This document shows, piece after piece, positions 14,940-48,364 of a DNA stretch of 64,000 bases. Every line of letters begins with the position of its first letter. Positions within the stretch are counted from its first letter, which is position 1. Made by a program: the position numbers and the translations under genes. The notes beneath the pieces are model-generated. The model did not search any database. It was given only the letters and a program-made list of their open reading frames with translations, and was not told the origin of the DNA. The stretch covers positions 6,538,824-6,602,823 of the forward strand of contig NC_049982.1 of assembly GCF_000003815.2 (NCBI RefSeq), given 5' to 3'. Source of the stretch: Branchiostoma floridae. Its lineage: Eukaryota; Chordata; Leptocardii; Amphioxiformes; Branchiostomatidae.

Positions 14940-15145
14940 TCAGCAGTCTAGTGTGTTCGCTATTCTACACTCACCACAAGTATTTTCACATTCCTCCATG
15001 GTTTTAAAGTTGTTGCCATTTGACTGGCAGCCTCCCCAGGTGAAGTCTTCGCATTGTCCAGTCTCTTTGTTGAAGAACACCCTTGGAATTAATGCCTTGC
15101 ATGGGCCTACCTTCTTGGGATCCAAGCAGCGTCTGGGTATGCGGT
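14940..15145 (-). CDS. Exon 25: Kunitz/BPTI domain and C-terminus
   Basis: The acceptor is tttaag at 15,146. All six Kunitz cysteines are present: RRCLDP, GPCKA, GQCEDF, GGCQSNGNNF, EECENTC. The residue after the second Cys (P1) is Lys, which predicts trypsin-like inhibition. At 14,975 there is a strong phase-1 donor (TGTG|GTGAGT) like those of the other modules; reading on instead adds ECRIANTLDC and a TGA at 14,940. I chose the read-through end because AATAAA follows 270 nt later and no convincing further exon is visible. If the donor is used, the domain exon is 14,975-15,145 and the true 3' end lies elsewhere. Confidence 0.85.
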
Positions 15146-18100
15146 CTTAAAAATAAAAGCAGTGGAATGAAGTTTTAATTGTTACTTTGTAGAAGAAAAC
15201 TCCAGGCACAAATCGAGGCTTGCATGCTTGCATGGTGCTCGCCCCCTAGTGGATCAAGCAGTCATCAATTCAAAAAGAATTATGTGTAAATTCCCCAGTG
15301 GTGTATGTATGTTTTTAACTTTTCAAGTCTTAAGGCCCCCTTTCCACTAGACGGCATCGCACTGCGCTCTCACTGCGACCTAAATATGATATGTAAAACC
15401 TTCGCCTTCACACTGGTTATGTCATTCAAAACGTAAAAGTGTAACTTAAAAGACAACAAAACACAGAAAGTGTAAAAAGATTTGTTTCTTTTCCATACAA
15501 TTCGTTGAGGGATATGTCAAATTTTAGGTCGCAGAGAGAGCGCGGCGAGAGCGCCGTCCTAGTGGAAAGGGGGTATAAGCAGGTGTTCCATTAGATTCCA
15601 AAATAATTTTGCATATTTTGTAGGGGTTCTACCACCAAAATAATCTTTGAAATAATACTTTGTTTAAGAACACTCCTATTAAATAAATATATATATTATA
15701 AAAGACATCAAAATACACAAAATATCAAAATAAGATTCGTGGGCATGATTTGTTTATATTGCTAGGTATACATTTCAATTTTTCGTTTCTTAAAACATAT
15801 GCATCCCGGCCGGGCCCCAGTTTGGAAATGTGACCTAAGCCTTACAGGGATTATTAGCAGTGCACATGGTGTTAGTAACAAGTGATAATGACAAATAAAC
15901 ATACGGAAAATAAAGGTAAAAACACTAAGGAACATAAACAACTGATTTGTGGGTAAAAGGACAAGACACAAGTGGATATAACTTAGTGTTATTTAGTACA
16001 TTATATACAAGGATGTGTAGGGACGACTCAATGCAGCAGAGCCCTCCCCAGTTCAGTTTTGAACTTGAGAGAGACCCCTCCTCCGCCACACCAGGCTCAA
16101 GTTTGTTCCACCCCTGGATGGTGCGAGGGAAGAACTAGAGCCTGTAGAAGTTGGATTTACTCACGATGTTCTGCAGCTAGCTTGACAGCGTGGTTGGTGC
16201 GGTGGGAGCATTGAGTGGCCAGGACCAGTTTAGATGCGTGTGGGACAGAAATGTGCTTGACTGTGGATCATTTTGTACATCTAGTCCGTAGCACGCATAC
16301 ACCATCCTGATGGTGCTCAGTATCAATTTTGTCGACAAGCTTACTTCTTAGCGTGCAATTACCATGCCCGGTGCACCTAGAGAAGTCAAAGGAGGCGTTG
16401 TTTTAACACCTCCTTACTGCAATGTTGTTACATGTATAATGACGACCTCACATTTTCACCTGTACAAATGCCTCGGGCTGTGCATGCACATTTTGAAGTG
16501 CAAAATATGGGGCTGGGAGCTTGAACTTTGCATGTTTTGGCACATTAAAGAACCAAATGAATGTTCGTGTGTGCATGCGTGCATGTGTATGTGTATGCAT
16601 GTGTGGATTTCGATCAAGTCTTGCAGTAACATCAGTAAAGGTCATGATGTATTAAAAGTGAGGAATATGCTGTGATTTCATAGTGTGATGATTTCGTGAT
16701 TGAGAAGTCACCACAAAAAAAACGGCAAAATAAAACCAAAGGTAATAGCTAAATATTTACAGTATAATGATGATGAAAGCAGATATCAATGATTTGACAT
16801 CTAACAAGTAAGTCCTCAGAATTCTTTACCCAAACAGAAGTGGAACTGCCATCTACTCACTTGATGAAGAGTACATTTTCTTGACAGGTAATGGTGCACG
16901 TCCCTTTCCTTTCACAGGTGCCCCTGTTAAGTAAAGAATATGAAGAGAGGTCATATGAATAAAACACAAAATGTCAAAAAAAAAACTACTTACTAGTACA
17001 TGTACATCCTTTTGTTCATAAATAAGAAAACAAGATAATAATATTTCATAAAATGATTTTTCTGAGCTAATGAAAATTTTCTAAAAAGGGCATAAAAGTT
17101 GTCAATGGAATATCATTGGAAAAGGGCAAGGAAAGTTGTTGTTATTATGACATTGTCCAGAGTTACCAGCGGAACCCGAAAGTCAGTTGGTGCATGGCAC
17201 CGCACAGTTTGGAACGTTGAAAATTTTTATGAAACTGATTCCAAAGTTCAAAAACTTTAGAAAGTACTGTGACGACAGTTTCTAATACTTTTCAAGAATA
17301 TGGTGTTTACTAGTCAAATTTACAAATCAGAAAATGAATTTCTCAATGCGAGAAAGCCATGTATATATGAGATTTAAACACAAGAAAATGCAAGTGGATT
17401 AAAACAAGTTAGTTTAGAAATACAGTTGTACTTTAGTCCAAATAGAAAATCTTACTCTCTCTCTCTCCCCATGCAAAAATGGACGTCTAATAAATTATAA
17501 TAGTATGTCAATTTTATCAAACAGAAAGTTCTATGGAAGTAGACGTAAAACAAACCTTTTTTTCCAAAGTCCTACTAGTACCCACATACAGAATATCATA
17601 ACGATCCTGGACCATAACTTTCTGAGTTATGCTGACAAATGTACATGTATGCAGAAACACACCAAAAATAATAACTCCCATGACACTACATATCACCCAG
17701 GCAAAACCCATTTATTAAAATGTGATGATAATTGTCACTAAAATGAAGAGGAAAACAGCACTTAACTATTGGTCCCAGATCCCAAACCTCATGCTTTATA
17801 CAGTGATTTTATGCCTGCACCTGAATTACCATTGTCTGTATTGCCCTACTCTTATATGACTACTCTTTATTGCATACTATTAGTTTTAAATGGTTTACAA
17901 TGTCCATAGCAATGGGATGCTATGGCAAACAAACACTGTTTGTATCATCATGATGATGTTCTTTCAAACTATTAAGAAACAAATGTAAATTTCAACTTAT
18001 AATCTAAACTACATGTACGCACCACAGTCCACATTTGCCGGGTTGTCACACTGATCAGTCTCCTCGTTAAAGTAAAGGCCGTCTGGACACTCCATATGGT

Positions 18101-21100
18101 ACGCTATTCCATTGCTGCAGTCGTAATACATGGTGCAGTCTTCTGGGTCGGCATAGTCACCGTTTGGCTTTCCTTCACAGGAGAAACCTAGACAAGCAAA
18201 TTACAGATCTGGGTTTAGAACAAGTTATATCTAGCAAGTGCGTGATCTCGCTAAATAGTGATACATTTTATAAAAACAACAACTCTAAAACAAAACGACA
18301 TCACAACTGTATCGGGGTTCAAGTGGCACCAACTGACCAGTCCAACTGGTCTGGACCTTTTGGTCTAGCGGTTATGGCGTTGGGTTAGCTGTCAGGCCCG
18401 GGTGCGATCCCAGGGAGCCAGGAGACTGTTTCTACTGACGCCCCTTGCGTTTCAGTGGCTCCTGCATCAACCCTGTGACAAATTACAAAAGTGTGCCACA
18501 CAGGGATATCAAACTCGGAGATTTGAGGACGAATCTGAAAAGGAAAACAAGGAGAAGTGCAACAGTGGGATTCAAGCACCACCAACTGACCAGTCCAACT
18601 CAAAAGTGAAGAACCCATGGCCAACTGCAACAACACGTACATTAATATTGGAGATACCAGTCAGCCACTAAAATGCAAGGTACAAAGTTGCAGACCTACA
18701 TTGTAGCTCTAGCTGCGGCGATTACTCCTCAGCCATTTTCCACTACCTACAATTCATAACCATGCAGGGACAAATACAACATCAAATCTGGTGAGTGTTT
18801 TAGTTGTGTTGGAACAAAGCTCAAACTTTACAACTGTCATGGACTCTACCAAGTTGACACAGATGTGAGTCTTCATTCCAGCTTGGTGAAGGTAATGATC
18901 CAAAATATGCAGCACATTTTCAGGGTATCGATCAGTCTTCTTGTTGTAGTAAAGGCTGTGATAAAAGTAAAATGAGTCTTACCAGCTTCTATTTCACAGA
19001 CGAAGCGAAACTGTCTGTCACAGAATGCATCTGCCCAGTTGTCCCGTCTTTCCCCTTCTTTAGTACCGTAAACGATGTGTGCACAGTATTTGTTCTTTTC
19101 GTTTGGCTCCCCAGGTGCCCAGCTCGCATAACTGCCCAGTGGGATGCCCTTCCCATCTCTCCATACTCCTGCTGTGTTCACTATACCAAGCCAGAACTGT
19201 TGGGCACTATATTCAATGCAGAAATACAGTCATGATACATGTAGCAGTTTGTAATTGCCAATGAAAGAACTCCAAAACATTTTTTCTGTAAATATTATAA
19301 TTTCCTTCAAGAGGGTCTGCATGCTCTTTTCCGTAAGGCGTAGGCCTGCCTTTTAATTTCCCGTAATTCGTAGGGAAGCTATTTTATTTCACGTAATTCG
19401 TAGTGAGGATGGAAAATTTACCGTAAACCATAGCCAGTGTATTTCACGTTAAGTGTGATAGAGCCTAAAAAATTCACGTAAAGCGTAATATAGCCTAAAA
19501 ATTACCCGTACATCGTAGCCTGGTCTCCCAAATTTCCTAAGTCGAAGGGTAGTCTACCAGTAAAGTTTAGTCGCTCAAAACACGGGAAATTGCGTTTCAG
19601 AGGATCAAGATTTCAAAATTTCGCCGGACCTCCCTTGCTAATCCTTTCACATTCGGTCATCGACATGGCAAAAATATGTATCGGGGACCTCGCCCTCACC
19701 TTTTTTGCCGTTAATAGGAATGTTATTGTAGTTAGATAGCTTAGTCTGGCAGCAAAATTTGCCTATCAAAATGCAGGAAATATCATTTTAGAGGTTCAAA
19801 ATTTCCATGGTCCTCCCGTTGCGCCGCCTCGTGCCTTTGGCGCTCGAAATGCTGAAAATGTGTTGGATGTGTCAAACTCAAAGACCTGTTTTGCTAATAA
19901 AAATGTCATTGAAGTTAGCTTACTCTGTCAGCAAAATTAGCCCATCAAAATACAGGAAATATCATTTTAGAGGGTCAAGATTTCAAAATTCCCTTGCGCC
20001 ACCTCGCGCCTTCGGCGCTCAAAATGCTGAAAATATGTTGGGGGATGTGACGTGTCAACCTCAAACACCTTTTTTTGCTGACAGAAATGTGATTAGATTT
20101 AGCTTTATACAATATCCATCAAATCAAAATTTTTCTTAGAAAAACTCAGGATGCGGCGTTTCAGAGGGTCAGGATTTCAAAATTTTCCTGGACTTCCCTT
20201 GCGACGCCTCACCCCTTCGCGCTCGACGTGTGGCGTCACCCTCAAAAGCTTACGCGGAACCCCTGGGAATCTTTAATTAGATATGCCATTTAACATAGCT
20301 TTGTCTGCCTGCAAAAATTTACCCTCAAAATGCAGGAATTTAAGTGTTTCAGAGAGTCAAAATTTTAATCTTCCCAGCGGAGCATGCCCCCGCCTCTGTC
20401 GAGTGTTGCCAGCTTGCCAGCCTTCCAGAATTTAGCGCAAACCGTTGCCAGCCTTTCTGAATTTAGCGTAAAACGTTGCCGGCCTTCGTGAATTTAACGT
20501 AATAAAGTGTTGTCGACCGTCCCGAATTTAGCGTAAAGCGTTGTCAGGACCCCCCATGCAGACCCTCCTTCAACTCCTGAGAGCAGGCAATTATAGTGAT
20601 GCCAAGCCTTGTATTTAAGTTGCCACCGAACCTGTTGACGCAGTTTTTTAGGAACACCAGGCTTTGCTGTTCCTCCTCATTTCTTGGTATTGCAATGATG
20701 CCGCCTTGTTGTCTGCATTCTTGTTGTGCGTCACTATGGGTCTTGGTGTCATCATCTGCGAGGTAGGTCTTACCACTGGGTAGTACCAGGCTGTTGTCTT
20801 GCGGACAGGATGCTTAAAAGATAATGTCAGGAAAAAGATTTCTGGACCAATATGGAAAGATGAACCAAAAGATATCTAACATATTGAAGGCATTATATGA
20901 CATACATCTGAGTGCTCAAAATACCCACTTGCACACTTGCACTATTATCGCAACGACAATTTGCTCTGACTTAAAGCTAAACCCAGGTTGCGCAGTTCTG
21001 CAGCCAGAACACTGCTTTTTCCTCAGGCTCTAACCCAGTACTTAGTGTTGATGGCTCAACTCTCCACACGATATTGTCGGACGAAATCCTAAGGAGATGT

Positions 21101-24100: not shown

Positions 24101-27100
24101 TGATTTCAAAAATAAAATTGCAATTTTCAACATACAATCAATACCACAAACCTGATGACATTTTCCTTGTGGGTTGCACTGTTAAGAAATATGGAAAAAT
24201 AATGTCGCATAAACCATTATGATGCAAGATCTTAAACATTTGCCTAAGGTCCTGATTTGAATAAATTTGCATTTTCTCCCATCCAAAAGACATGATCCTG
24301 ATTTCTATTATCTATGCTTAATTCGTCTGATTATGTCAACCTTCACTTTGATGATTAGGTTAAAAAAAACTCCTTTTAGGGGCCAGAACCTATGTGACCC
24401 TAGCCCAATAACTACATGTACCTGCCACAAAAAGCCATGCTCATAGCACGTACAGAACATGAGATTTTAAAAAAATGAAGTTCTGCTACAGTACAGCTTG
24501 GGGCCTACGATTAAATTGGTCCTTTGTTTTCCAACACCAACCCACATACTAATGAATATTACAAGAATCCACCAACAACATCTTAAATTTTGCTGTCATT
24601 ATAAACAACAAATATACAGACACGTACATTTGCACCAATTTGACCAAATTTAAATATACAAATGGCACCAAAAACATCTTTGTGACTTCAAGATAATGAT
24701 CCAAAATACACACCACAGTCTACATTTGCCGGGTTGTCACACTGATCAGTCTCCTCGTTAAAGTAAAGGCCGTCTGGACACTCCATATGGTACGCTATTC
24801 CATTGCTGCAGTCGTAATACATGGTGCAGTCTTCTGGGTCGGCATAGTCACCATTTGGCTTTCCTTCGCAGGAGAAACCTTCACCTGTTGGAACAAATCA
24901 CAAATATATACATTTAAGTTTGCTGTGAAGGTGATGAAGAGAAATGTGCGCAGTCTCGTAAAAAAACAAATAAAAATGAAAGGCTGTCACTCATACAATC
25001 ATGTACCTACATGTAGTACACAATTCTATTACATGATCCAACAAATGTATATCATTTGAACAAGTATGCACCGTATAGCCTTGATGTACTTTGTTACGTT
25101 ATGTAATTTGAGTCATGCTCACTTGATGATGTTTTTTTGCCATGTACCGGTCGCCTGGTGGGTCTACGAGGCGCTTGCCTCCGCCTTGCGCCTGTTACAT
25201 GTACATGTAGGTAATATCAAACTAAGTCATTGGAAATTATGTAGTACTACATTCTATCATGATCGACAAATGGTTGACTTTCAAACAAAATAATTGCATT
25301 TCAATGTAAAATCAATACCACAAACAAGATGACATTTTCCCTGTGTTATTCTGTTGTACTGTTAAGAACATGGAAAAATTATAATGTTGCACCAAATCTA
25401 ATATGCAAATGGCACCAAAAACATCTTTCAAGGTAATGTTCGAAAATACGCACCACAGTCTACATTTGCAGGGTTGTCACACTGATCAGTCTCCTCGTTA
25501 AAGTAGAGCCCTTCTGGACAGTCCATATGGTATGCTATTCCATTGCTGCAGTCGTAATACATGGTGCAGTCTTCTGGGTCGGCATAGTCACCATTTGGCT
25601 TTCCTTCACAGGAGAACTCATCATCTATTCAAGCAAATTGCAAATCTAGATTTAGAATGACATGTGTGCTGTTGTCGTCTGGTCGTAAATAAGCATTTCC
25701 ATTTTGACATCATGATGGAATGTGTCTGAAAAGTTAAATATCAGGAACATTGAGGATAGTTTCTTGCAGGAATTCTTACTTGTAGAAAAGATGCCAGTTT
25801 GGTGATGAAATCCTACAACTACATTGCATGTATCAACTTGAATGTTTACCACATTGGTAGGAGGATTGGTGTAACCTGGTGATTTTCAAGATGTCCACCT
25901 CACACTGCAGGATGGATGGTCACCCCTACTTACTCTTTTTGACAAGTGTGATGGTCTTCTTAATGTGCTGGAGGTGTGGATTTTCCAAAGATGGCTAAAA
26001 TTACATCACCAGTGTTCTCGCCTTTTCAGCATAGGCCTGGCCCCAGTAGTAGTAGTAGCAGTACTATGTGATTTAGATCCTCTTCACTGTGATTTGGGAC
26101 CTTACACTCTGTTTCAACCAGCAAAGGGGACTTTATAGCTTTTTTTGTAACAAAGCTAAAAAAAATTGGCCCTTATTATATAGGAAATAGTGTTTCTGAG
26201 GGTTATGAATTTAAAAATCTTCAGGGGGAGGATTCCTCCAGATGCCCTCTTAATGCTCATGCCTGCAAGTCACTTACCACTTGACTTTGCTGCATTAAGG
26301 TGCCCCTACTCTGTGAAGAAATCCTGGGGAGAACACTGATCACATCCAAGAGGACGTCCCTAACCAAAGCTTAGTGTTCTTATTTCATCTGAGTCAAGTG
26401 AGGAAATGGGGGTAAATTGCCTTTCCCAATGGCACAACATTGGTACTGGGATTCAAACCTTTAGATTCTAAGTCAATAACCCTGACCACAAGACTACTGG
26501 GAAACTGAACTGGAAAAGAAAACATGGAAAAGAAAACATGATACAATGTAGTAGCCCAGTTACCATGTTGATTGTCCTTCTTCAGGATAACTAATTTCTC
26601 AAAGTTGTGCCAAATAATCATATATTTGCTGTATATGACATATATTTATAGTATTAATGTAAACTGGCTCCTAAACATACATAATTATGCCATAAATAAA
26701 TGTAAGGTGAATGTAGCCAAAGCCTACCCAAAAGCACTTGAACTTCACACAGGGTCAGTATTCGTTCGGGACCAGGAAGACGGATGCCCACATACCGTCC
26801 CTTCATCCCAGAGCATGAGATGGAAACTGACGGCTCGTGCGTGTCAATTTGATGATCACCCCCACACTTGGGGTTCGTGCTGACCTGGCCAGAATCCCCA
26901 ATGTGGATGTTGAAGGGGTTGATTCTTCCCTGACAACAGTCCTGGCGATTGAAGATGACGACTCTGTATGGAAAACAATTACTAGTAATAGATCATAGTT
27001 ACAGCCTGGCAATTGATCATGTTTGCATCTCTCACACACTCTAAAGCAATCCTAAGGACGTTGTGATGTTGGTACTACACATCTACATTTTGTACTTGCT

Positions 27101-39100: not shown

Positions 39101-42100
39101 AGGTTCCGAGGGGCGTCCCGTCGATGTACCGCCAGTCTCCCTCCTGATCCAGATCATCAAAGCCGAGGTAGAAATGTGCATTACTGTCAACTTGGTTCTT
39201 CAGGTTGATCAGGAAATCGTGAGTGGCCTGGTCGCGGGGCATGGCCAGACTACCTCCATCACCCTGACATGCTGCAGCAGCCTCGTCAAACGTCTTCTTA
39301 TCATCATACGCCTTGTAGCAGTTGCCGCCGTGCTGTTCGTAGCCCACAGGACAGCCTGAAACAAGCCAAAAAAATGACCTCAAGGCAATAAAGCTTGTAA
39401 TAGAATGGGATATAAACGGTACACAATAGGCCGGGGTGGGTACCAATTTTGGTACGGGTCTGGCTAAGGTACAGAAAATCAGGTCCAGGTCCAGACCTGC
39501 ACCTGGACCTGATTGTCTGTGAATGGGCGATATTCAAACCAATGGTCTATTTTGCTACTGTAACAGAGGAATATGTTCAGTGGAATATTTGACTCCAACT
39601 GGCATTTTACAATCATGGTACACCACTTTGTTACTTATTGTGACCTTGTGGTTGACCACCAGGACTAAATCTTAGGTCAATACAGCGTAGGTGTGATGCG
39701 AAGTAAAAGTGCTGAAATTAATATGCACAGTCTGACTGTAATCCAAAAATAATGAAAATCTATATTCAACAACCATCCTTCTGCAAACGATCTGACAAAA
39801 CCTCAGCTAGGACTCTCATGTCAACCAAGCGAAATAATGAAGAAAGCCAACCAAAGATCTACACTGTTCATGCTCCATAAATTCAAACTAAGACAGTTTA
39901 GCCTCTCCCGTGAGAAGTTATGCTCTGTTGTAAGACTTCCGTTTCCCCCACCACAGAGTAAGCCGCACCGGCACGGCACGCAGCTCTTACTACACTGCAA
40001 CAACTGAGGATTGAATCTTTTAGTATTCAAAAACGGGCTTGCCAGACTATCCTTGGTGCCAGATCAATAAACTAGGAGTTCCTCCATCTTAAACATTTGC
40101 CTAAGGTCCCGATTTGAATAAATCACAATGTTGTTGACCCGGATCGCAACCCACATCACACATGTTCTGAGTATGAAAGTCCTATCATGGCACAGGCCGC
40201 TAAAATTGCATTCAATTTTCTACCATCCATATGATATCCTGATTTTCATAATATATGACTTTGTGTAATTTGATTATGTCAACCTTCAATTTGAAAGGCT
40301 CCTGCAGTTAAAAAAGGGGCCAAAAAAGTGTTAAAAAAAAACAGAAGTTCTGCTGCATTACAGCTTGGGGCCTACGATTAATGCTCTTTGTTTTCCAAGA
40401 CCAATCCACATAGTATTACATGTACAGTCAAACCTGTATAAGCGGCCATCATTGCATAGTGACCACCTGGCCACTGCGGTCATTTTTTGTCGGTCCGTTG
40501 CCCTTTGATTTTCCCATTGACCTAAGCATTAAGAAATAGTCTATAGCGGTCCACCTGTCCACTGGGCCGCAGCCACATGATTTCCGGTCCCGTAGATACA
40601 GAGACACTGCCTATTGCGACCATAAGGCGGCCGCATGTCACCCTGTGCCGAGTTTAAAATCGTAGTTTGCGAGGATTTGGAGTTCCCGACAGGGTCATTT
40701 TGGCGGTGGCCGAAGGTACACGTCCCATGAACGTTAGAGCTCAAGTCTTTGTTGACGAATTTACCAACATTGCGCATGGCAATATCAATCATTTCCTGTA
40801 GATTTGACTTTGGCAGGGTCAGTTGAATTTTGAGACGATCGAGACAAAGTTACTTTATGAGAAAGATTAGTGGGTACTGATCTCATGTGTAACATATTGA
40901 TCATGGTCAACTGATCAGCATTTTCTCTATAGTGGCCACCTCTGTCTATAGTGGCCACATTTCTCCAGTCCCTTGATTGGCTGCTATAGACAGGTTTGAC
41001 TGTAATTTATAATTAATATTACAAGAATCCAACAACACCACCTTAGAAGTTAGATTTTGCTGTCTAATAAACAATAAATTAATATACACTCAGCCATGTA
41101 CATTGGCACCAAATCTAATATACAAATGGCACCAAAAACATCTTTCAAGGTAATGTTCCAAAATACACACCACAGTCTACATTTGCAGGGTTGTCACACT
41201 GATCAGTCTCCTCGTTAAAGTAAAGGCCGTCTGGACAGTCCATATGGTAAGCTATTCCATTGCTGCAGTCGTAATACATGGTGCAGTCTTCTGGGTCGGC
41301 ATAGTCACCGTCTGGCTTTCCTTCGCAGGAGAAACCTTCACCTGTTGGAACAAATCACAAATATATACATTTAAGTTTGCTGTGAGGGTGATGAAGAGAA
41401 ATGTGCAGTCTCGTAATAAAACAGATAAATAGGAAAGTCTATCACTTATACAATCATGTACCTACATGTAGTACACAATTCTATTACATGATCCAACAAA
41501 TGTATTATATCATTTGAACAAGTATGCACCATATAGCCTTGATGTACTTTGTTACGTTATGTAATTTGAGTCATGCTCACTTGATGATGTTTTCTTGCCA
41601 TGTACCGGTCGCTTGGTAGGCCTACGTGCCGTTTGCCTCCGCCTTGCGCCTGTTACATGTACATGTAGGTAATATCAAACTAAGTCATTGGAAATTATGT
41701 AGTACTACATTCTATCATGATTGACAAATGGTCGACTTCAAAACAAAATAATTGCATTTCAATGTAAAATCAATAACACAAACCAGATGATATTTTCCCT
41801 GATCATGAGTGTTGTACTGTTAAGAACATGGAAAAATTATAATGTTGCACCAAATCTAATATGCAAATGGCACCAAAAACATCTTTCAAGGTAATGTTCG
41901 AAAATACACACCACAGTCTACATTTGCAGGATTGTCACACTGATCAGTCTCCTCGTTAAAGTAAAGGCCGTCTGGACACTCCATATGGTAAGCTATTCCA
42001 TTGCTGCAGTCGTAATACATGGTGCAGTCTTCTGGGTCGGCATAGTCACCATTTGGCTTTCCTTCACAGGAGAAACCTTCACCTGTTGGAACAAATTAAA

Positions 42101-45100: not shown

Positions 45101-48100
45101 TAAACATACGGAAAATAAAGGTAAAAACACTAAGGAACATAAACAACTGATTTGTGGGTAAAAGGGCAAGACACATGTCCCCTCTACAGTTTTGGTTAGT
45201 CGCATTGTGCTGTCGTTTTTGCTGGCATTTTCCTCCGATTTACCGTCAGTTATTGCCACAACAGAACCAAGAAAAAGTCTGAAATATATGTAAATAATAG
45301 TTTCCGACAAGCCGCTCAGACCCCACGAACTTGCAATATAAAGGGGCGGTGCATGCGCCGCAGAAATCCAGGTACAAATGCTTATTAGGTGTTGTTTGTA
45401 TACACCTTTCTCACGCGGCGGCCATGATAGATCCAAGAAGAGGTCAATGAGGCAAACAGACAAAACTTATTTCTAAAATCAGGTCCCATTTAGTTTTCCC
45501 CCAAACCACACAAATTTTCATGATATAAGATGGAATAATAAATATTACAAGAAGTGTTATGCACCAAAAAATGTAGCAATTTAGAGTAGTGTAGACTGAC
45601 CCCATAGTCCATTTAGAGATGCAAAATAAAAACATAATAATGCAAATTTTTAACGAATTTGCAGCCATTCACTTATTGGTCGATTTCCTAATTGGCAGGC
45701 TACCATTGGTCGAACTGCTAATTATGATGGACAGCCTTTTGTTTGCCACATTGAACTCGTTTTAGATCTATCATGGCCGCCGCATGAGAAAGGTGTATAT
45801 CAAAACAATGAAATAGCTTCTATAAAGCAAATATTTATGTCTCTATGATTATGAAGCAGATATTTATCCCTCTCTAAGCATATATTTTCAGTTTCCCTTT
45901 TTTGTTAGGGGTGAGAGATCTGCTTCGTGATGAAAACCAGCATCATAAGTCTGAGACAAAAAATATTTTCCAAATGTGAGCGCAGGGACTTATTGGCGTC
46001 TTGAATATTTTTTCAAAGTTGATAGAAGGCAGGGAGGGCCTAGCAAAAATAATTTAGACCTAGGGGGAGGGCCTAGCAAAATTTTTCTGACCCGACCCCC
46101 TCACTAAATTCCGTACGGTCCCTAAAGTGAGGAATATGCTGTGATTTCATAGTGTGATGATTTCGTGATTGAGAAGTCACCACAAAAAAAATGGCAAAAT
46201 AAAACCAAAGGTAATAGCTAAATATTTACAGTATAATGATGATGAAAGCAGATATAAATGATTTGACATAACAAGTAGGTCCTCAGAATTTTTTACCCGA
46301 ACAGGAGTGGAACTGCCATCTACTCACCTGATGAAGAATACTTGGCAGGTAATGGTGCACGTCCCTTTCCTTTCACTGGTGCCCCTGTAAAGTGGTGAAT
46401 ATGAAGAGAGGTATTTTTTATGAATAAAACATTAAATACAACGAAAGTGCAGTGCATGTCATTTTGAAGGAAACATTACTTAGTCTATATATGGAATGGG
46501 GTGATCGGAGTGTCATATGGTATAGGTACAAAAAAACAAATGGAAAGTCTTAACAACATTTCTAAAAAAAATTATACATCACACTGATCAAGTGGAATTT
46601 GCATAATGTGCATATCATACATCCATCATTACAGCAACATCCAGGGGTGCGGGTCACAGGGAAAATTGGGTTAAGTCAGTAAAACATAAAATGATGCAGC
46701 TACATGTAGACATGTGCTTGATTGCAATGTATGCAGAGGGCAGAATCAGTATGACAACAAGTTAAGATTACCTTCTTGTCCACCCCCTGGCATATATCGG
46801 CACTGGTGTAGAGGGATGCATCTCTCGCCAAACCACACATGGCCCCAATCACAGACACATCCTGGAACACAGATCCTGGGGCACATTGGACGTGGGTCCG
46901 CACAGGTAGGGCGACACATGCCATCACACTGGGACCAGTGACTGTTCGCCGGGCACTCAGCTGTAGATCAAGAAGAGGAAATGGTCGCCTGTATAATAAT
47001 TTGTAGTCAAGTCAGGGAATGGGGGTTGAGTGCCTTTCCCAATGGCACAACTTTGGTACTGGGGCCTGCTAGGGAATCAAACCAAGAAAGTATAACAGGG
47101 CTTGAAATACTTTTTCTGCATACCTGCACTGGTGCAGGTAACATTGAAAATTGCCTGCACCACTTTGAATTTAGGAAGTATGGATCATACTAAAATTATT
47201 CAGCAACCATTGCTATTTTTACTTTTATACTTTATACTAGTAGGTGGTAACAGTCAATGCAGCTAGTAACAATCCAATGTGGCACATACACCTACTAGTA
47301 CAGCATAGGACATAAAACCAGGACCAGTGCAGGTTAGGTGCAGGTAGACACCAGAAATACCTGCACAGCTCCAACTTTACCTGCACTAACCTGCATATGC
47401 AGGTGGTATTTCGAGCCCTGTATAACTATAAGAAAGTCTATGTCCTTGATTACTCTTTATTGCATAGTTGTAACACCTCCTTACTGCAATGCTGTTGTAA
47501 TGACGACCTCAAATTTTCACCAGTACAAATGCCTCAGGCTTTGCATACACATTTTAAAGTGCGATGGGGTGTGGGAGCTTAAAGTTAAACTTTGCATATT
47601 TTGGCACATTAAGGAACCCAATGAATGTTTGTGTGTGCATGTGTATGTGTGTGCATGTGTGGATTTCGATCAAGTCTTGCAGTAACATCAGTAAAGGCAC
47701 TGATGTACATCGTGAGGAATATGCTGTTATTTCATAGTCACTATAAGTGTGATGATCTCGTGATTGAGATGTCACCCCCCCAAAAAAAAAAGGCAAAATA
47801 AAACCAAAGGGAATTTGAAAATTCATTTACAGCATAAAGCAGATATTACAACCTATTTCTCAGAATCTTTTTAGCCAAACAGAATTGGAATTGCCATCTA
47901 CTCACCTGATAAAGAGTAGGGAGCAGGTAATGGTAAAGTGATGAATACGAAGAGAGGTAATAAGGTTACCACATAAATATGGCAAAGGTGCAGCACATTG
48001 TTGTATTTGAAGATATCTTTTTAATGCAAGATGGAAGTGTCACACAAAGGTGGGATGAAAGGTTGGACATGCAATATAAACGTTTTACTTTGTTATGTTA

Positions 48101-48364
48101 GGTAATTTGAGTAATGATCACTTGTTTCCTCCCCTGGTTGGTGAACGTGGTGTTTGCCTTGGCCCTGCACCTGTTAAGTAATATCAAACCATTGTCATCG
48201 GAAATGATGTATGTGACAAACAGTGTTGTTGGCATCAAGAAAAATTGCATTTGAACGTAAAATTAATACCACAAACCTCTTGGCTGTCCTCTTCCAGTAG
48301 CACGATAAGACGTCACCAGGGCCACGCCTAGCAACGCCAAGACTACAGACAGGAGGTACCTCAT
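14940..48364 (-). CDS. Secreted mosaic protein: six chitin-binding, three lectin and three protease-inhibitor domains (spliced, 25 exons)
   Basis: Seen in the sequence: 25 exons with GT/AG borders on the minus strand, listed individually below. Joined, they keep one open frame from ATG at 48,362-48,364 to TGA at 14,940-14,942 (3,555 nt, 1,184 aa). Domain order is signal peptide, TIL, CBM14, CBM14, C-type lectin, CBM14, TIL, F-type lectin, CBM14, CBM14, C-type lectin, CBM14, Kunitz, separated by short Arg/Lys/Pro-rich linker exons. Known of the families: CBM14 binds chitin, CTLDs with EPN bind mannose-type sugars with calcium, F-type lectins bind fucose, and TIL and Kunitz domains inhibit serine proteases. 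Inferred: an extracellular protein that coats chitin or mucus, captures glycans and resists proteolysis. Every module is phase 1-1, so exon skipping keeps the frame and many isoforms are possible. The join of neighbouring modules into one transcript is not proven; two adjacent genes cannot be excluded. Confidence 0.72.
15336..15573. mobile_element. GC-ended MITE in the intron before the Kunitz exon
   Basis: The 238-bp element has long inverted ends: ccccctttccactagacggc on the left and the matching agtggaaaggggg on the right, extending about 45 bp through gcgctctc..gcgaccta with mismatches. The target duplication is unclear. Confidence 0.7.
15770..16930. repeat. Duplicated intron block (partners 42.2-43.4 and 44.4-46.4 kb)
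   Basis: The order here (catcccggccgggcccc, single cagtgcacatgg copy, aggatgtgtagggacgactc, gcctcgggctgtgcatg, linker exon) is repeated at 42,245-43,378. A third, partly deleted copy runs from 44,395 with interruptions to 46,390. Copy differences date insertions, see findings. Confidence 0.75.
16861..16923 (-). CDS. Exon 24: basic linker APVKGKGRAPLPVKKMYSSS
   Basis: The 63-nt exon is phase 1-1, with acceptor taacag and donor TCATCAA|GTGAG. It differs from its sisters by Val for Ala in the LPAKK segment and by the last base (A), so it joins the Kunitz exon with an Asn codon. Confidence 0.72.
18023..18187 (-). CDS. Exon 23: CBM14 no. 6
   Basis: The 165-nt exon is phase 1-1, with acceptor gtctag and donor TGTG|GTGCG. 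It is two codons shorter at its start than the other copies (begins GFSCEGKP), otherwise the same six-cysteine domain. Confidence 0.92.
18348..18580 (+). mobile_element. tRNA-derived SINE insertion
   Basis: It starts with an A-box-like tagcggttatgg and B-box-like ggtgcgatcc about 35 nt further on. It is flanked by perfect 20-bp direct repeats (18,328-18,347 and 18,581-18,600, accaactgaccagtccaact), extending to about 30 bp with three mismatches, as left by target-primed retroposition. It lies in the intron between exons 22 and 23. Confidence 0.72.
18983..19206 (-). CDS. Exon 22: C-type lectin domain 2, C-terminal half (EPN / WAD)
   Basis: The 224-nt exon has phase 2 in and phase 1 out. I chose acceptor aatatag at 19,207, not the nearer caacag, because it restores the frame exactly: NSAQQFWLGIVNT. 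It contains APGEPNEKNKYC, then DNWADAFC and FVCEIE. EPN is kept; the usual WND reads WAD with Asn before the Trp, so one calcium ligand may be lost or moved. Sugar binding is therefore less certain than for CTLD 1. Confidence 0.87.
19311..20567. mobile_element. hAT-like non-autonomous element splitting the CTLD 2 intron
   Basis: Its ends gagggtctgcatg (19,311) and catgcagaccctc (20,567) are exact inverted repeats, and ccttcaa is duplicated outside. The interior consists of diverged units with tttcagagggtcaagatttc, tcccttgcgccgcctcg and gcgctcaaaatgctgaaaa, plus short cgtaawgcgtag motifs near the ends. A fragment of the same family lies at 63,235-63,360. There is no transposase frame. Confidence 0.62.
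20632..20812 (-). CDS. Exon 21: C-type lectin domain 2, N-terminal half
   Basis: The 181-nt exon has acceptor tttaag and donor CAACAG|GTTCGG, phase 1 in and phase 2 out. It reads SCPQDNSLVLPSGKTYLADD, then AQQECRQQGG and IAIPRNEEEQQ: the first strand, helix 1 with the conserved Cys, and the A-x-P-R-N-E-E-E helix 2 of collectin-like CTLDs. No N-terminal hairpin Cys pair is seen beyond the first Cys. Confidence 0.85.
21248..21310 (-). CDS. Exon 20: basic linker TPVKGKGRAPLPAKKMYSSS
   Basis: The 63-nt exon is phase 1-1, with acceptor taacag and donor TCTTCAG|GTAAG. It is a near-identical sister of exon 4, with matching intron flanks. It lies upstream of the split C-type lectin. Confidence 0.73.
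21800..23040. repeat. Tandem units of about 360 bp within the TTAA element
   Basis: The mark gcaataaaa recurs at about 21,822, 22,183, 22,545 and 22,903, with caggtatyryt.caggtaag and gaggagtcctgrggacatgac in each later unit. The last unit is interrupted by the CpG-rich segment. Confidence 0.75.
23047..23575 (-). promoter_or_regulatory. CpG-rich, promoter-like segment inside the TTAA element
   Basis: The GC content jumps sharply against AT-rich surroundings. It holds cttccgg and ttacgtca (ETS- and CRE-like) near 23,568 and gcacttccg near 23,490. On the minus strand ATG at 23,212 in GCCGACATGGCT opens a 41-codon frame starting MAVVGREAVYKTEEARNR; I do not recognise it. It could be a captured host promoter and first exon, or just the element's own promoter. 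Confidence 0.35.
23953..24021 (-). CDS. Exon 19: Arg-rich linker
   Basis: The 69-nt exon is phase 1-1, with acceptor taacag and donor TCATCAA|GTGAG. It reads ARLRQTPSRPTRRPVHGKE then TSS, the most diverged of the four Arg-rich copies (Leu for Arg, Glu for Lys). No CBM14 exon follows it; the 2.2-kb TTAA element lies between it and the next linker, so a following CBM14 exon may have been lost. Confidence 0.68.
24714..24884 (-). CDS. Exon 18: CBM14 no. 5
   Basis: The 171-nt exon is phase 1-1, with acceptor caacag and donor TGTG|GTGTG. The peritrophin-A cysteine pattern is complete. It is nearly identical to exons 7 and 10 over the exon and about 100 nt of upstream intron. Confidence 0.93.
25123..25191 (-). 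CDS. Exon 17: Arg-rich linker
   Basis: The 69-nt exon is phase 1-1, with acceptor taacag and donor TCATCAA|GTGAG. It reads ARRRQAPRRPTRRPVHGKK then TSS. It is part of the linker-CBM14 cassette. Confidence 0.72.
25454..25624 (-). CDS. Exon 16: CBM14 no. 4
   Basis: The 171-nt exon is phase 1-1, with acceptor aatag (not caacag) and donor TGTG|GTGCG. The six cysteines are intact. It begins DDEFSCEGKP where the others have GEGFSCEGKP, and has EGLYF instead of DGLYF: the most divergent of the full-length copies. It follows the F-type lectin directly, without a linker exon. Confidence 0.92.
26390..26480 (-). mobile_element. Dispersed short repeat (SINE/LINE tail type)
   Basis: It shares gtgaggaaatgggggt and tgcctttcccaatggcacaa with 46,995-47,065 in another intron. 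This string is common to a dispersed family; head and ends are not visible. Confidence 0.45.
26728..26963 (-). CDS. Exon 15: F-type lectin domain, C-terminal half
   Basis: The 236-nt exon has acceptor atacag and donor TTGG|GTAGG, phase 2 in and phase 1 out. It contains FNRQDCCQGRI, which matches the fucose-binding motif R-x-D-x4-R with the adjacent Cys-Cys, and ends with RYVGIRLPG and LCEVQVLL. The distance from the His in exon 14 to this Arg is 29 residues, slightly more than the usual 26 or so. The sugar-binding residues are intact, so fucose binding is predicted. Confidence 0.92.
27375..27567 (-). CDS. Exon 14: F-type lectin domain, N-terminal half
   Basis: The 193-nt exon has acceptor ggacag and donor GGCAG|GTATG, phase 1 in and phase 2 out. 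It reads NVALEKPAYQTS, SLAVDGDTDTDFFAGSCSH and SWWVDLGQSYMV. These are the family hallmarks: NVAL start, DG-N/D-x-D calcium region, the sugar-contacting His after SCS, and WWxVDLG. Together with exon 15 it makes one fucolectin domain. Confidence 0.92.
27769..28084. mobile_element. MITE with CAGNGCTCGAAA ends, copy 1
   Basis: The 316-bp element has left end CAGTGCTCGAAA, right end TTTTGAGCCCTG, and catcta duplicated on both sides. Internal acctgcac blocks are inverted between the halves. It lies in the intron upstream of the F-type lectin. Confidence 0.75.
29113..29160 (-). CDS. Exon 13: shortened linker KRRAPLPAKKMYSSS (use uncertain)
   Basis: This is a copy of the GKGRAPLPAKK linker. The acceptor AG used by its sisters is mutated (the site now reads ttgtaaaag). 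The nearest AG, five codons further in, keeps phase 1 and would give a 48-nt exon; the pyrimidine tract before it is poor. The donor TCATCAG|GTGAG is intact. It could be a weak alternative exon or a dying one; the frame of the gene holds either way. Confidence 0.42.
29161..33216. other. Part of the largest intron (exon 12 to 13), no exon seen
   Basis: It holds the 30.9-kb hairpin, a cagggagcaaagaggatta LINE-tail-like piece near 30,790, a minus-strand tail ending in AATAAA near 32,315, an (AAT)n run near 32,465 and a ggtccaggt palindromic repeat at 32,890-33,020. I find no domain exon in either strand. Confidence 0.5.
30892..30947. repeat. Perfect 18-bp hairpin
   Basis: gagtggccaggtcacatg (30,892) and its exact complement (30,930-30,947) enclose a 20-nt loop, inside the intron between exons 12 and 13. 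Confidence 0.8.
33217..33577. mobile_element. Element with perfect 16-bp inverted ends GGTAACAAACGTTACC
   Basis: The left end at 33,217-33,232 and the exact complement at 33,562-33,577 bound a 361-bp unit. Two more copies of GGTAACGTTTGTT lie inside (33,231 and 33,380), so the left side forms a perfect 26-bp palindrome at 33,220-33,245. Confidence 0.6.
33600..33945 (+). pseudogene. LINE reverse-transcriptase C-terminal fragment
   Basis: The frame from about 33,634 reads KKKKLQWFGHATRAKG, ILQGRAEGARPWGRPRRTW and SDLKDW: the K-L-Q-W-F-G-H ... G-R-P-R-x-x-W tail found after the RT domain of many non-LTR elements. No RT core motifs precede it, so it is a 5'-truncated copy. It ends near a gtgagg repeat tail. 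It sits in an intron of the mosaic gene, opposite strand. Confidence 0.75.
34262..34450 (-). CDS. Exon 12: TIL domain 2
   Basis: The 189-nt exon is phase 1-1, with acceptor gtgcag and donor AAAAG|GTGAG. It has ten cysteines with the same spacing as exon 2 and the WFGERCIP core. It is clearly a paralogue of TIL 1 but less similar than the CBM14 copies are to each other, so an older duplication. Confidence 0.88.
35051..35119 (-). CDS. Exon 11: basic linker, divergent type
   Basis: The 69-nt exon is phase 1-1, with acceptor taacag and donor ATCAG|GTATTT. It reads AKRTSRTMIHPTSRVKRTPP then SS. It resembles the other linkers in length, charge and the final Ser-Ser-Gly, but not in sequence. The VKRT stretch offers a dibasic site. 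It lies just 5' of TIL domain 2. Confidence 0.6.
35299..36151. mobile_element. pogo/Tigger-like non-autonomous element
   Basis: The 853-bp element has 23-bp inverted ends agreeing at 21 positions, starting CAGTGAAAGCCGCTTAATTG, with TA on both outer sides. The string gcaattatccggcgt recurs inside. The ends and target fit the pogo/Tigger group. No transposase frame is seen. Confidence 0.75.
36566..36736 (-). CDS. Exon 10: CBM14 no. 3
   Basis: The 171-nt exon is phase 1-1, with acceptor caacag and donor TGTG|GTGCG. All six cysteines and the MYYDC aromatic block are present. It is nearly identical to exons 7 and 18, including the preceding intron tail. Confidence 0.93.
36985..37053 (-). CDS. 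Exon 9: Arg-rich linker
   Basis: The 69-nt exon is phase 1-1, with acceptor taacag and donor TCATCAA|GTGAG. It is the same ARRRQTPRR..RRPVHGKKTSS type as exons 6, 17 and 19. It sits upstream of CBM14 no. 3 with cassette-like spacing. Confidence 0.72.
37054..38965. other. Intron between exons 8 and 9, no exon seen
   Basis: The part nearest exon 9 is the duplicated cassette intron. From about 37,530 to 38,880 the sequence has no match elsewhere in the window; it may be a single insertion, but I cannot define its ends. Confidence 0.4.
38966..39355 (-). CDS. Exon 8: C-type lectin domain 1 (EPN / WND)
   Basis: One 390-nt exon (130 codons), phase 1-1, with acceptor tttcag and donor GCAAG|GTAAG. 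It is a long-form CTLD: N-terminal hairpin CPVGYEQHGGNCYK, the WIGL-like FYLGFDD, then GEPNN and NTWNDDWC, and the final FICQ. EPN plus WND is the calcium-site signature of mannose/GlcNAc-type lectins, so sugar binding is predicted. Unlike CTLD 2 the domain is not split by an intron. This suggests that the two CTLDs were acquired separately. Confidence 0.94.
39425..39600. repeat. Palindromic GGTCCAGGTC dispersed repeat
   Basis: Related copies are at 32,815-33,020 and 48,437-48,545. All share gggttgrgtacc/ggtacc, a cagaaaattcaggtcc lead-in and an aggtccaggt.. acctggacct foldback; 39,510-39,590 is an inverted match to 32,815-32,915. Confidence 0.6.
40425..41002. mobile_element. TA-flanked MITE, CAGTCAAACCTG ends, second copy
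   Basis: The 578-bp element has ends CAGTCAAACCTG and CAGGTTTGACTG with TA outside. Cassette introns at about 24,540 and 36,430 lack it at the equivalent place, so it inserted after the cassette duplicated. Confidence 0.8.
41171..41341 (-). CDS. Exon 7: CBM14 no. 2
   Basis: The 171-nt exon is phase 1-1, with acceptor caacag and donor TGTG|GTGTG. The six-cysteine peritrophin-A spacing is as in exon 5. The sequence differs from the others by only a few codons (for example Asp before Cys4 where several copies have Glu), and the flanking introns are also near-identical, pointing to recent tandem duplication. Confidence 0.93.
41581..41649 (-). CDS. Exon 6: Arg-rich linker
   Basis: The 69-nt exon is phase 1-1, with acceptor gtaacag and donor TCATCAA|GTGAG. 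It belongs to the ARRRQTP..RPTRRPVHGKKTSS family that separates CBM14 domains. It is very basic, with RxxR and KK motifs and no cysteines. The copy lies 240 nt upstream of the next CBM14 exon, the same spacing as in the other cassettes. Confidence 0.72.
41912..42082 (-). CDS. Exon 5: chitin-binding domain CBM14 no. 1
   Basis: The 171-nt exon is phase 1-1, with acceptor caacag and donor TGTG|GTGTG. It has six cysteines spaced C-x13-C-x5-C-x9-C-x12-C-x7-C, the peritrophin-A pattern, with the aromatic motif MYYDC before Cys3 and GLYFNEETDQC leading to Cys5. These domains bind chitin in insect peritrophic matrix and in amphioxus VCBPs. It is almost identical to the other five copies here. Confidence 0.93.
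43316..43378 (-). CDS. Exon 4: basic linker TPVKGKGRAPLPAKKMYSSS
   Basis: The 63-nt exon is phase 1-1, with acceptor ctaacag and donor ATCAG|GTGAG. The same peptide, with changes, is coded by exons 3, 13, 20 and 24. It carries a dibasic KK and an RxP patch; see the linker-cleavage finding. Conservation at the peptide level across five copies argues for a used exon. Confidence 0.75.
43450..44223. mobile_element. MITE with CAGGGCTCGAAAT ends, copy 2
   Basis: The 774-bp element has exact inverted ends and ttact duplicated outside (43,445-43,449; 44,224-44,228). The duplicated intron at 16,980-17,010 shows the empty site with one ttact. Confidence 0.85.
44467..45066. repeat. 20-bp minisatellite, 30 copies
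   Basis: The unit is cagtgcacatgtaataataa. It fills exactly 600 bp with, as far as I can see, one substitution (gaacatg at 44,671-44,677). Because 20 is not a multiple of 3, all three minus frames read the same 20-residue periodic peptide, giving false ORFs of up to 339 codons. Confidence 0.97.
45400..45798. mobile_element. Element with 34-bp inverted ends
   Basis: 45,400-45,433 and 45,765-45,798 pair at 33 of 34 positions; the ends contain gcggcggccatgatagatc. Sequence just inside is also loosely inverted. It lies upstream of a cassette remnant. Confidence 0.65.
46328..46384 (-). CDS. Exon 3: basic linker APVKGKGRAPLPAKYSSS
   Basis: The 57-nt exon is phase 1-1, with acceptor ttacag and donor ATCAG|GTGAG. 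It is two codons shorter than its sisters (KM lost before YSSS). There is no fold; it is Lys/Arg/Pro-rich and ends in a Ser stretch. It probably acts as a flexible, positively charged spacer. The surrounding intron is nearly identical to those of exons 4, 20 and 24, so it belongs to a duplicated cassette. Confidence 0.7.
46772..46960 (-). CDS. Exon 2: TIL domain 1 (trypsin-inhibitor-like, 10 Cys)
   Basis: The 189-nt exon is phase 1-1, with acceptor ctacag at 46,961 and donor GAAG|GTAATC. It has ten cysteines in the TIL order: ECP, SQC, GMC, PTC, PMC, RIC, PGC, VC, ERC, HQC. The conserved core reads WFGERCIP. TIL domains are canonical serine-protease inhibitors, and in larger secreted mosaics also structural Cys-rich units, so inhibition is plausible but not shown. 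The sister copy is exon 12, with the same length and cysteines. Confidence 0.88.
47096..47420. mobile_element. MITE with CAGGGCTYGAAAT ends, copy 3
   Basis: The 325-bp element is flanked by tataa on both sides (47,091-47,095; 47,421-47,425). The interior acctgcac blocks match copy 1. Confidence 0.82.
47890..47945 (-). pseudogene. Decayed GKGRAPLPAKK-type linker exon
   Basis: The flanks match those of the intact linker exons at 46.3 and 43.3 kb, and the donor (ATCAG|GTGAGT) is kept. The middle of the exon and its acceptor are deleted: the stretch coding VKGKGRA is missing. It is best read as a relic of the cassette duplication. Confidence 0.5.
48121..48175 (-). pseudogene. Decayed basic linker exon
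   Basis: This is similar to the four intact basic linker exons (RQTP and PTR are readable) and keeps the acceptor ttaacag. Compared with them it lacks several bases near its 3' end, and its donor-like site (AA|GTGATC) would leave the wrong phase. Using it would break the frame into the next exon, so I treat it as a dead copy. Confidence 0.5.

Follow-up and report, generated by a model that had tools for sequence, protein, structure and literature searches.

The minus strand of a 64,000-nucleotide stretch of the Branchiostoma floridae genome (the window; contig NC_049982.1, labelled C4, C4:6538824-6602823) carries 15 exons that join in frame into 960 residues, in which F-type lectin (FTL), CTLD, CBM14, TIL and Kunitz modules follow a signal peptide (SP), and in which a pair of CBM14 exons lies within an intron of an old FTL-CTLD gene unit. 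The chances are evenly balanced as to whether these exons constitute one gene, of at least 15 coding exons, for a secreted multivalent mucosal lectin built by phase-1 exon shuffling. Positions without a contig label are those of the window, and the genome searched comprises 513 Mb in 431 contigs.

The exons have AG/GT borders and extend from 48364 to 14975, and since all of them are on the minus strand, the gene would run from 48364 down to about 14940. An earlier note on this DNA had claimed the module order SP-TIL-CBM14x2-CTLD-CBM14-TIL-FTL-CBM14x2-CTLD-CBM14-Kunitz and its in-frame join, and both are confirmed by the 15 exons, by the 960 codons without a stop, and by Pfam, which in the joined protein finds CBM_14 six times (whole-protein E 5.1e-92), Lectin_C twice (1.2e-33), F5_F8_type_C_2 once (6.1e-20, with an overlapping F5_F8_type_C match), TIL twice (1.4e-18) and Kunitz once (9.6e-17), and no further family at E<=0.01. 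Chance is excluded as the source of these domains; Rfam has no match at its gathering score. That each domain would be clear from its binding residues proves right for CTLD1, FTL and Kunitz, and wrong for CTLD2, the CBM14s and the TILs. Phase 1 is found at all 12 module borders, and a phase-2 intron splits FTL and CTLD2 each; borders of this phase are what shuffled extracellular modules generally show, and by themselves are no proof of one gene. The donors of the SP exon (GTTTGT), CTLD2 exon a (GTTCGG), FTL exon b (GTAGGC) and the CBM14 exons (GTGTGT or GTGCGT) are weak; in the C8 and C9 copies of CTLD2 exon a, the donor reads GTAAGG and GTAAAA, versus GTTCGG in the window. The Kunitz exon closes with a good phase-1 donor (TGTG/GTGAGT), so the stop at 14942-14940, which is reached by reading through that donor, is only one possible end; no modules below the Kunitz exon were recognised by eye in minus-strand ORFs of at least 40 residues with at least three Cys, to 12 kb below the window.

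CTLD2 is encoded by two exons (exon a, 20632..20812, phase 1 in and 2 out, identified by Pfam; exon b, 18983..19206, identified from the joined exons and CTLD comparison) and has copies on many contigs. At 19 places outside the window, among the matches listed, exon b is matched with at least 54% identity, and for at least 11 of these close paralogues an FTL lies no more than 15 kb away on the same strand, compared with a mean of 0.12 and at most 2 in 2000 trials of random placement on contigs of approximate size. The FTL is 5' of the CTLD, as in the window, at 8 of the 11 paired places, and 3' at the other 3. Both of the paired places that were read, on C9 and C8, have the order FTLa-FTLb-CTLD2a-CTLD2b, collinear with the window and with similar borders. 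FTL-CTLD2 is an old gene unit in this genome, and FTL with CTLD2-type exons is strongly amplified genome-wide. Two-exon F-type lectin copies occur on most chromosomes (exon b 64-81% identical, among the matches listed), often beside CTLD2-type exons. These statements cover the best 150 of 647 and best 150 of 468 candidates in the FTL searches, and the best 150 of 1204 and best 150 of 867 in the CTLD searches.

The FTL and CTLD are separated by 2.2 kb on C9 and 1.2 kb on C8, versus a 5.9-kb intron in the window, which holds CBM14-4 (25454..25624) and CBM14-5 (24714..24884); between FTL and CTLD of the C9 and C8 copies, CBM14 has no match at E<=1. Over 1112 bp, counting the intron, the block with CBM14-4 and CBM14-5 (25647-24550) shares 91% identity with the block that holds CBM14-1 and CBM14-2 (42107-41010). 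The matching CBM14 exons of the two blocks have dS of 0.16 and 0.11, whereas FTL and CTLD2 differ from their C8 and C9 copies with dS of 0.62-1.12 (dN/dS 0.22-0.31), so the CBM14 insert is much younger than the FTL-CTLD unit, and yet its protein has hardly changed. Between the C8 and C9 copies of CTLD2 themselves, dN is 0.10 and dS 0.09, i.e. there is no constraint. The simplest account would be that an FTL-CTLD gene received a copy of the CBM14 pair in its intron and put it to use, the likely source being 16 kb away; we infer this direction of copying because CBM14 is absent from the two copies that were read (C8 and C9). That a TIL-CBM14-CBM14-CTLD-CBM14 unit was duplicated in tandem as a whole is rejected, as the two CTLDs have different lineages and intron patterns; the modules that are duplicated are the CBM14 exons with their flanks and the TIL exon.

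The FTL (exon a, 27375..27567, phase 1 in and 2 out, identified by Pfam on the joined protein and by structure matches; exon b, 26728..26963, phase 2 in and 1 out) matches FBP32 (3cqo, E 1.7e-47) and the eel lectin (1k12, E 4.8e-19), and conforms to the F-type pattern of H...R-x-D-x4-R/K with a CC pair. The fucose-recognition module that had been proposed looks canonical: the FTL is likely to bind fucose because of its match to FBP32 and eel agglutinin, with which its His and RQDCCQGR (R-x-DCC-x-x-R, in exon b) are aligned. By count, the spacing is H-x29-R, and the x26 of the F-type lectin motif is three shorter. CTLD1 (38966..39355, a single exon, Pfam PF00059) reads GEPN...DENC...TWND, and has all three elements (EPN, the following E and WND) that provide the Ca ligands of a mannose-type CTLD such as that of mannose-binding protein; judged by these motifs, it is the sole CTLD of the gene with a complete mannose-type Ca site. 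CTLD2 probably lacks Ca-dependent sugar binding, since EPN is kept but WND is replaced by WAD and there is no E two residues before the Cys, and since both paralogues read (C8 and C9) likewise deviate from the Ca ligands. Mannose-type recognition, also claimed before, is thus upheld for CTLD1 and not for CTLD2. As judged from 32-38% identity over the matched part and from different introns, the two CTLDs are of different lineages. CTLD1, too, is by comparison a shuffled exon: its nearest copy among the matches listed (C14:3123610) is 81% identical, and 85.7% over 572 bp with flanks (dN 0.11, dS 0.17), and is preceded by a Sushi and another CTLD-like piece.

Pfam PF01607 matches all six CBM14 domains, of which the remaining four are CBM14-1 (41912..42082), CBM14-2 (41171..41341), CBM14-3 (36566..36736) and CBM14-6 (18023..18187), and the six Cys and the P-x-G-L loop are kept. 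Compared pairwise, the six exons have dS of 0.11-0.30 and dN of 0-0.023 on only 28 synonymous sites, and three independent pairs show 17 differences, 5 of them non-synonymous, versus 82.5% expected (p = 2e-6); the CBM14 exons are under purifying selection, i.e. selected as protein. A stretch immediately upstream of TIL2 (34799-34640, minus strand; tblastn E 0.001 over 17 residues) is a weak candidate for a decayed CBM14 exon, as Pfam gave no match.

At somewhat short of an even chance, there may be one gene whose CBM14s do not hold chitin, but serve as spacers or bind another ligand after loss of a key Trp, the product being a soluble fucose/mannose lectin with a Kunitz domain. At the position of Trp465 of chitotriosidase, all six carry Asn (CDNP) and are not of the chitin-binding type, which has an aromatic residue there, whereas Trp (CDWP or CDWA) is present in 6 of the 6 other CBM14s in which the position is readable (four of nearby chitinases and two on C2, the comparison leaving out four partial C2 copies with the position unreadable). 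Trp465 is one of three high-impact chitin-binding residues of chitotriosidase (PMC5459812, PMC4844120), and in one passage its substitution is named the strongest (PMC5459812). The best solved match of the CBM14s is a 25-kDa polyphenol-binding protein of three CBM14 stretches, with no Trp in the two stretches in which the position is printed, and the next-best is a chitinase with Tyr at the Trp position. Against the loss of chitin binding, the strong purifying selection and the kept P-x-G-L loop suggest a ligand, and repetition can offset weak sites. This reading overlaps the one-gene explanation, and the likelihoods stated here are not shares of a single whole. The chitin anchoring of the earlier note is weakened: the six profile matches stand, and the key Trp is replaced in all of them. 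As far as motifs can tell, the lectin part of the mechanism proposed below is well founded, and the chitin part poorly so, because of the lost Trp.

That the FTL, the CBM14s and CTLD2 share a transcript is very probable, because the FTL-CTLD2 unit is old, the CBM14 pair lies in its intron and purifying selection acts; the location of the pair supports the earlier claim of an F-type lectin with chitin-type modules within one gene. The joins to the upstream half and to the Kunitz exon are likely, and one transcript across all modules has a somewhat better than even chance. It is rather doubtful that there are instead two or three adjacent genes with their own starts and ends (SP-TIL-CBM14x2-CTLD1-CBM14, and TIL-FTL-CBM14x2-CTLD2-CBM14 with or without Kunitz); under that division, each product would be a smaller and more ordinary secreted lectin. 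The different lineages of CTLD1 and CTLD2 agree with such a division, as does the finding that CTLD1's closest copy, among the matches listed, is part of a different architecture on C14. Ahead of the Kunitz exon, an SP-like ORF at 17711 leaves room for a separate Kunitz gene; but SP-like ORFs inside the gene number 4, versus 3.7 expected from 29 in 262.8 kb of the same strand, which is the chance level, and a relaxed scan finds no SP-like exon between CBM14-3 and TIL2. A predicted lancelet fusion, Lectin_C-fn2, was refuted by ESTs (PMC4967905), which also favours separate genes, and RT-PCR failed to recover two predicted lancelet VCBP fusions (PMC2632668). The weak donors of the SP exon and CTLD2 exon a likewise speak against a single gene. 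Against division, the CBM14 block is common to both halves. CpG peaks are located at 35-36 kb, before TIL2, at 38-39 kb (1.03), between CTLD1 and CBM14-3, and at 50-53 kb; the first of these, although promoter-like, is rejected as a sign of a second start, being accounted for by a dispersed repeat of about 870 bp (35296-36163) with copies of 89-96% identity on many contigs (best 40 of 2308 candidates). Gaps within the gene are at most 6.7 kb, and the next recognised modules outside it are 17.7 and 21 kb away. Poly(A) signals, looked for after each exon, are uninformative. A 20-bp minisatellite occupies 44313-45192, in the intron that separates TIL1 from CBM14-1. That the shuffled exons form an untranscribed patchwork in decay, to which the weak donors at SP and CTLD2a and the possible CBM14 remnant at 34799 might point, is very improbable in view of 15 exons without stop or frameshift, CBM14 dN of at most 0.023 versus dS of 0.11-0.30, and dN/dS of 0.22-0.31 in FTL and CTLD2.

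The first coding exon (48277..48364), encoding the signal peptide MRYLLSVVLALLGVALVTS... and ending in a phase-1 donor, has relatives elsewhere that share its acceptor within the 5' UTR and resemble it at the donor, at C4:6444771 on the minus strand (80% DNA identity) and C4:6524552 on the plus strand (87%); the SP exon of a chitinase belongs to the same local family and is less alike. The locus C4:6524552-6536100, on the plus strand and facing the mosaic gene, has this SP-family exon upstream of two GON-domain pieces and of a CTLD that is 57% identical to CTLD1. About 5-20 kb above the window, PAN-domain exons are repeated in tandem, each unit measuring approximately 1.45 kb (C4:6608278-6622823, minus strand); some copies are identical over 300 bases, and the array continues past the stretch examined. 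At ten sites the array matches a CBM14 exon's 3' end together with the exon border. Pfam confirmation of the PAN, GON, Sushi and GH18 assignments covers one or two pieces each, the Sushi query being one residue short.

The two TIL domains (TIL1, 46772..46960, Pfam PF01826; TIL2, 34262..34450, identified by Pfam on the joined protein and 67% identical to TIL1) have ten Cys each, and apart from these kept Cys there is little constraint between the copies (dN 0.25, dS 0.30). For TIL1, the only one searched, the nearest solved chain is of FCGBP (E 8.3e-11), followed by a chymotrypsin inhibitor (1ccv, E 2.9e-4), and because of these relatives a structural role of TIL1 appears more likely than an inhibitory one. 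The closest TIL outside the window (62%) is at C4:19179501-19196500. A Kunitz/BPTI inhibitor has, as a rule, six Cys and a basic P1 residue after the second Cys; the Kunitz domain here (14975..15145, Pfam PF00014) has Lys at P1 (GPC-K-A), matches BPTI-like chains and looks canonical. Of the two protease-inhibitor folds previously described, only Kunitz is secure, TIL1 being closest to the mucin-type TILs of FCGBP.

Assembly of the gene may have begun with the arrival of an old FTL-CTLD unit downstream of an SP-TIL-CBM14-CBM14-CTLD-CBM14 gene, and continued with the copying of the CBM14 pair into the FTL-CTLD intron. The signal peptide would direct secretion; the FTL would bind fucose, and CTLD1, with Ca2+, glycans of mannose or fucose type, the targets being on microbes or mucins. 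The six CBM14s might attach the protein to a matrix rich in GlcNAc, for instance the chitinous membranes present in the intestine of B. floridae (PMC6109156), or might serve as rigid spacers, stiffened by disulphides, and so increase valency. The Kunitz domain, with its P1 Lys, would block trypsin-like enzymes and so protect the protein in the gut, and the TILs would be structural, as in FCGBP. By analogy, the product may work in mucus or gut membrane as a multivalent lectin. The full proposal, held tentatively and at well below an even chance, is of one secreted protein that unites six CBM14s, fucose and mannose lectins and an inhibitor of trypsin type; as a VCBP counterpart free of Ig domains it would tie microbes or mucins to gut matrix, and it would still be in the course of assembly, its CBM14 pair being recent and already strongly selected. 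If it is true, domain shuffling has been caught here soon after the event.

None of 30 other CBM14 clusters in the genome, among the matches listed, has an FTL within 50 kb; 2 of the 30 have a TIL near and 1 has a CTLD near, with the large C13 cluster thinned to representatives and CTLDs mostly those on CBM14-carrying contigs. Lancelet genomes hold many shuffled lectins. Whether the high rate of new protein architectures in lancelets is real or a gene-prediction artefact is disputed (PMC4967905, PMC6071037). In the literature covered (titles and the beginnings of abstracts, mostly outside subscription journals), no protein with both CBM14 and an F-type lectin was found. The locus offers a testable case, as a CBM14-free FTL-CTLD unit survives in the same genome, the likely CBM14 source is 16 kb from the insert, and selection on the insert is measurable. 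If the transcript is confirmed, the list of proteins with which a basal chordate could arm its chitinous gut membrane would gain a candidate without Ig domains.

Several known systems share parts of this architecture. FTL-CTLD genes have the same order of the four lectin exons (at the two places read) and a CTLD2 without a full Ca site, but the mosaic gene differs from them in that a CBM14 pair separates FTL from CTLD and that TILs, further CBM14s and a Kunitz domain are added. CTLs, pentraxins, CCP, transmembrane and FA58C domains are frequent partners of the F-type lectin domain, CTLs being named for eukaryotes, and the word 'chitin' is absent from the main text of the review that names them (PMC5712786). 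The tandem genes at C4:19.180-19.196 Mb, with TIL, CTLD and once Kunitz modules together on one strand, have the closest outside TIL as well as Kunitz and CTLD, but no CBM14 or FTL by tblastn at E<=0.05; further Cys-rich pieces without family assignment are present, and the pieces resembling IGFBP and VWC, like the first CTLD exon of this locus, are without Pfam confirmation. Gel-forming mucins and FCGBP-like proteins (Ci-GFM1; lancelet C2:24.90-24.93 Mb) resemble the mosaic gene in the FCGBP-type TIL1 and in having CBM14 beside TIL; it is not a gel-forming mucin (VWD-C8-TIL, cystine knot), as VWD, C8 and cystine knot have no match in the joined protein at E<=0.01. The CBM14-TIL place at C2:24902501-24926500, a large gene-like array of VWD-like, TIL, EGF-like and CBM14 exons (by eye and tblastn), is rejected as a sister gene, being by eye of the VWD/EGF type.

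GH18 chitinases with CBM14 form a same-strand cluster of chitinase-like genes at C4:6368597-6395331, one GH18 piece being confirmed by Pfam and the others by eye; their CBM14s are 45-50% identical to those of the mosaic gene and their SP exon is similar, but the mosaic gene has no GH18 match at E<=0.01 and reads CDNP instead of CDWP. VCBPs consist of two Ig V domains and a chitin-binding domain, whereas the mosaic gene has no Ig match at E<=0.01, so that the VCBP counterpart of the earlier note survives as analogy and not as kinship; the mosaic gene also differs in having six CBM14s from which the Trp is lost. In VCBP-C of Ciona, the CBM14 binds chitin and tethers bacteria to chitin beads (PMC6109156), and it is in the predicted secreted design, with recognition domains joined to CBM14, that the mosaic protein would be like the VCBPs.
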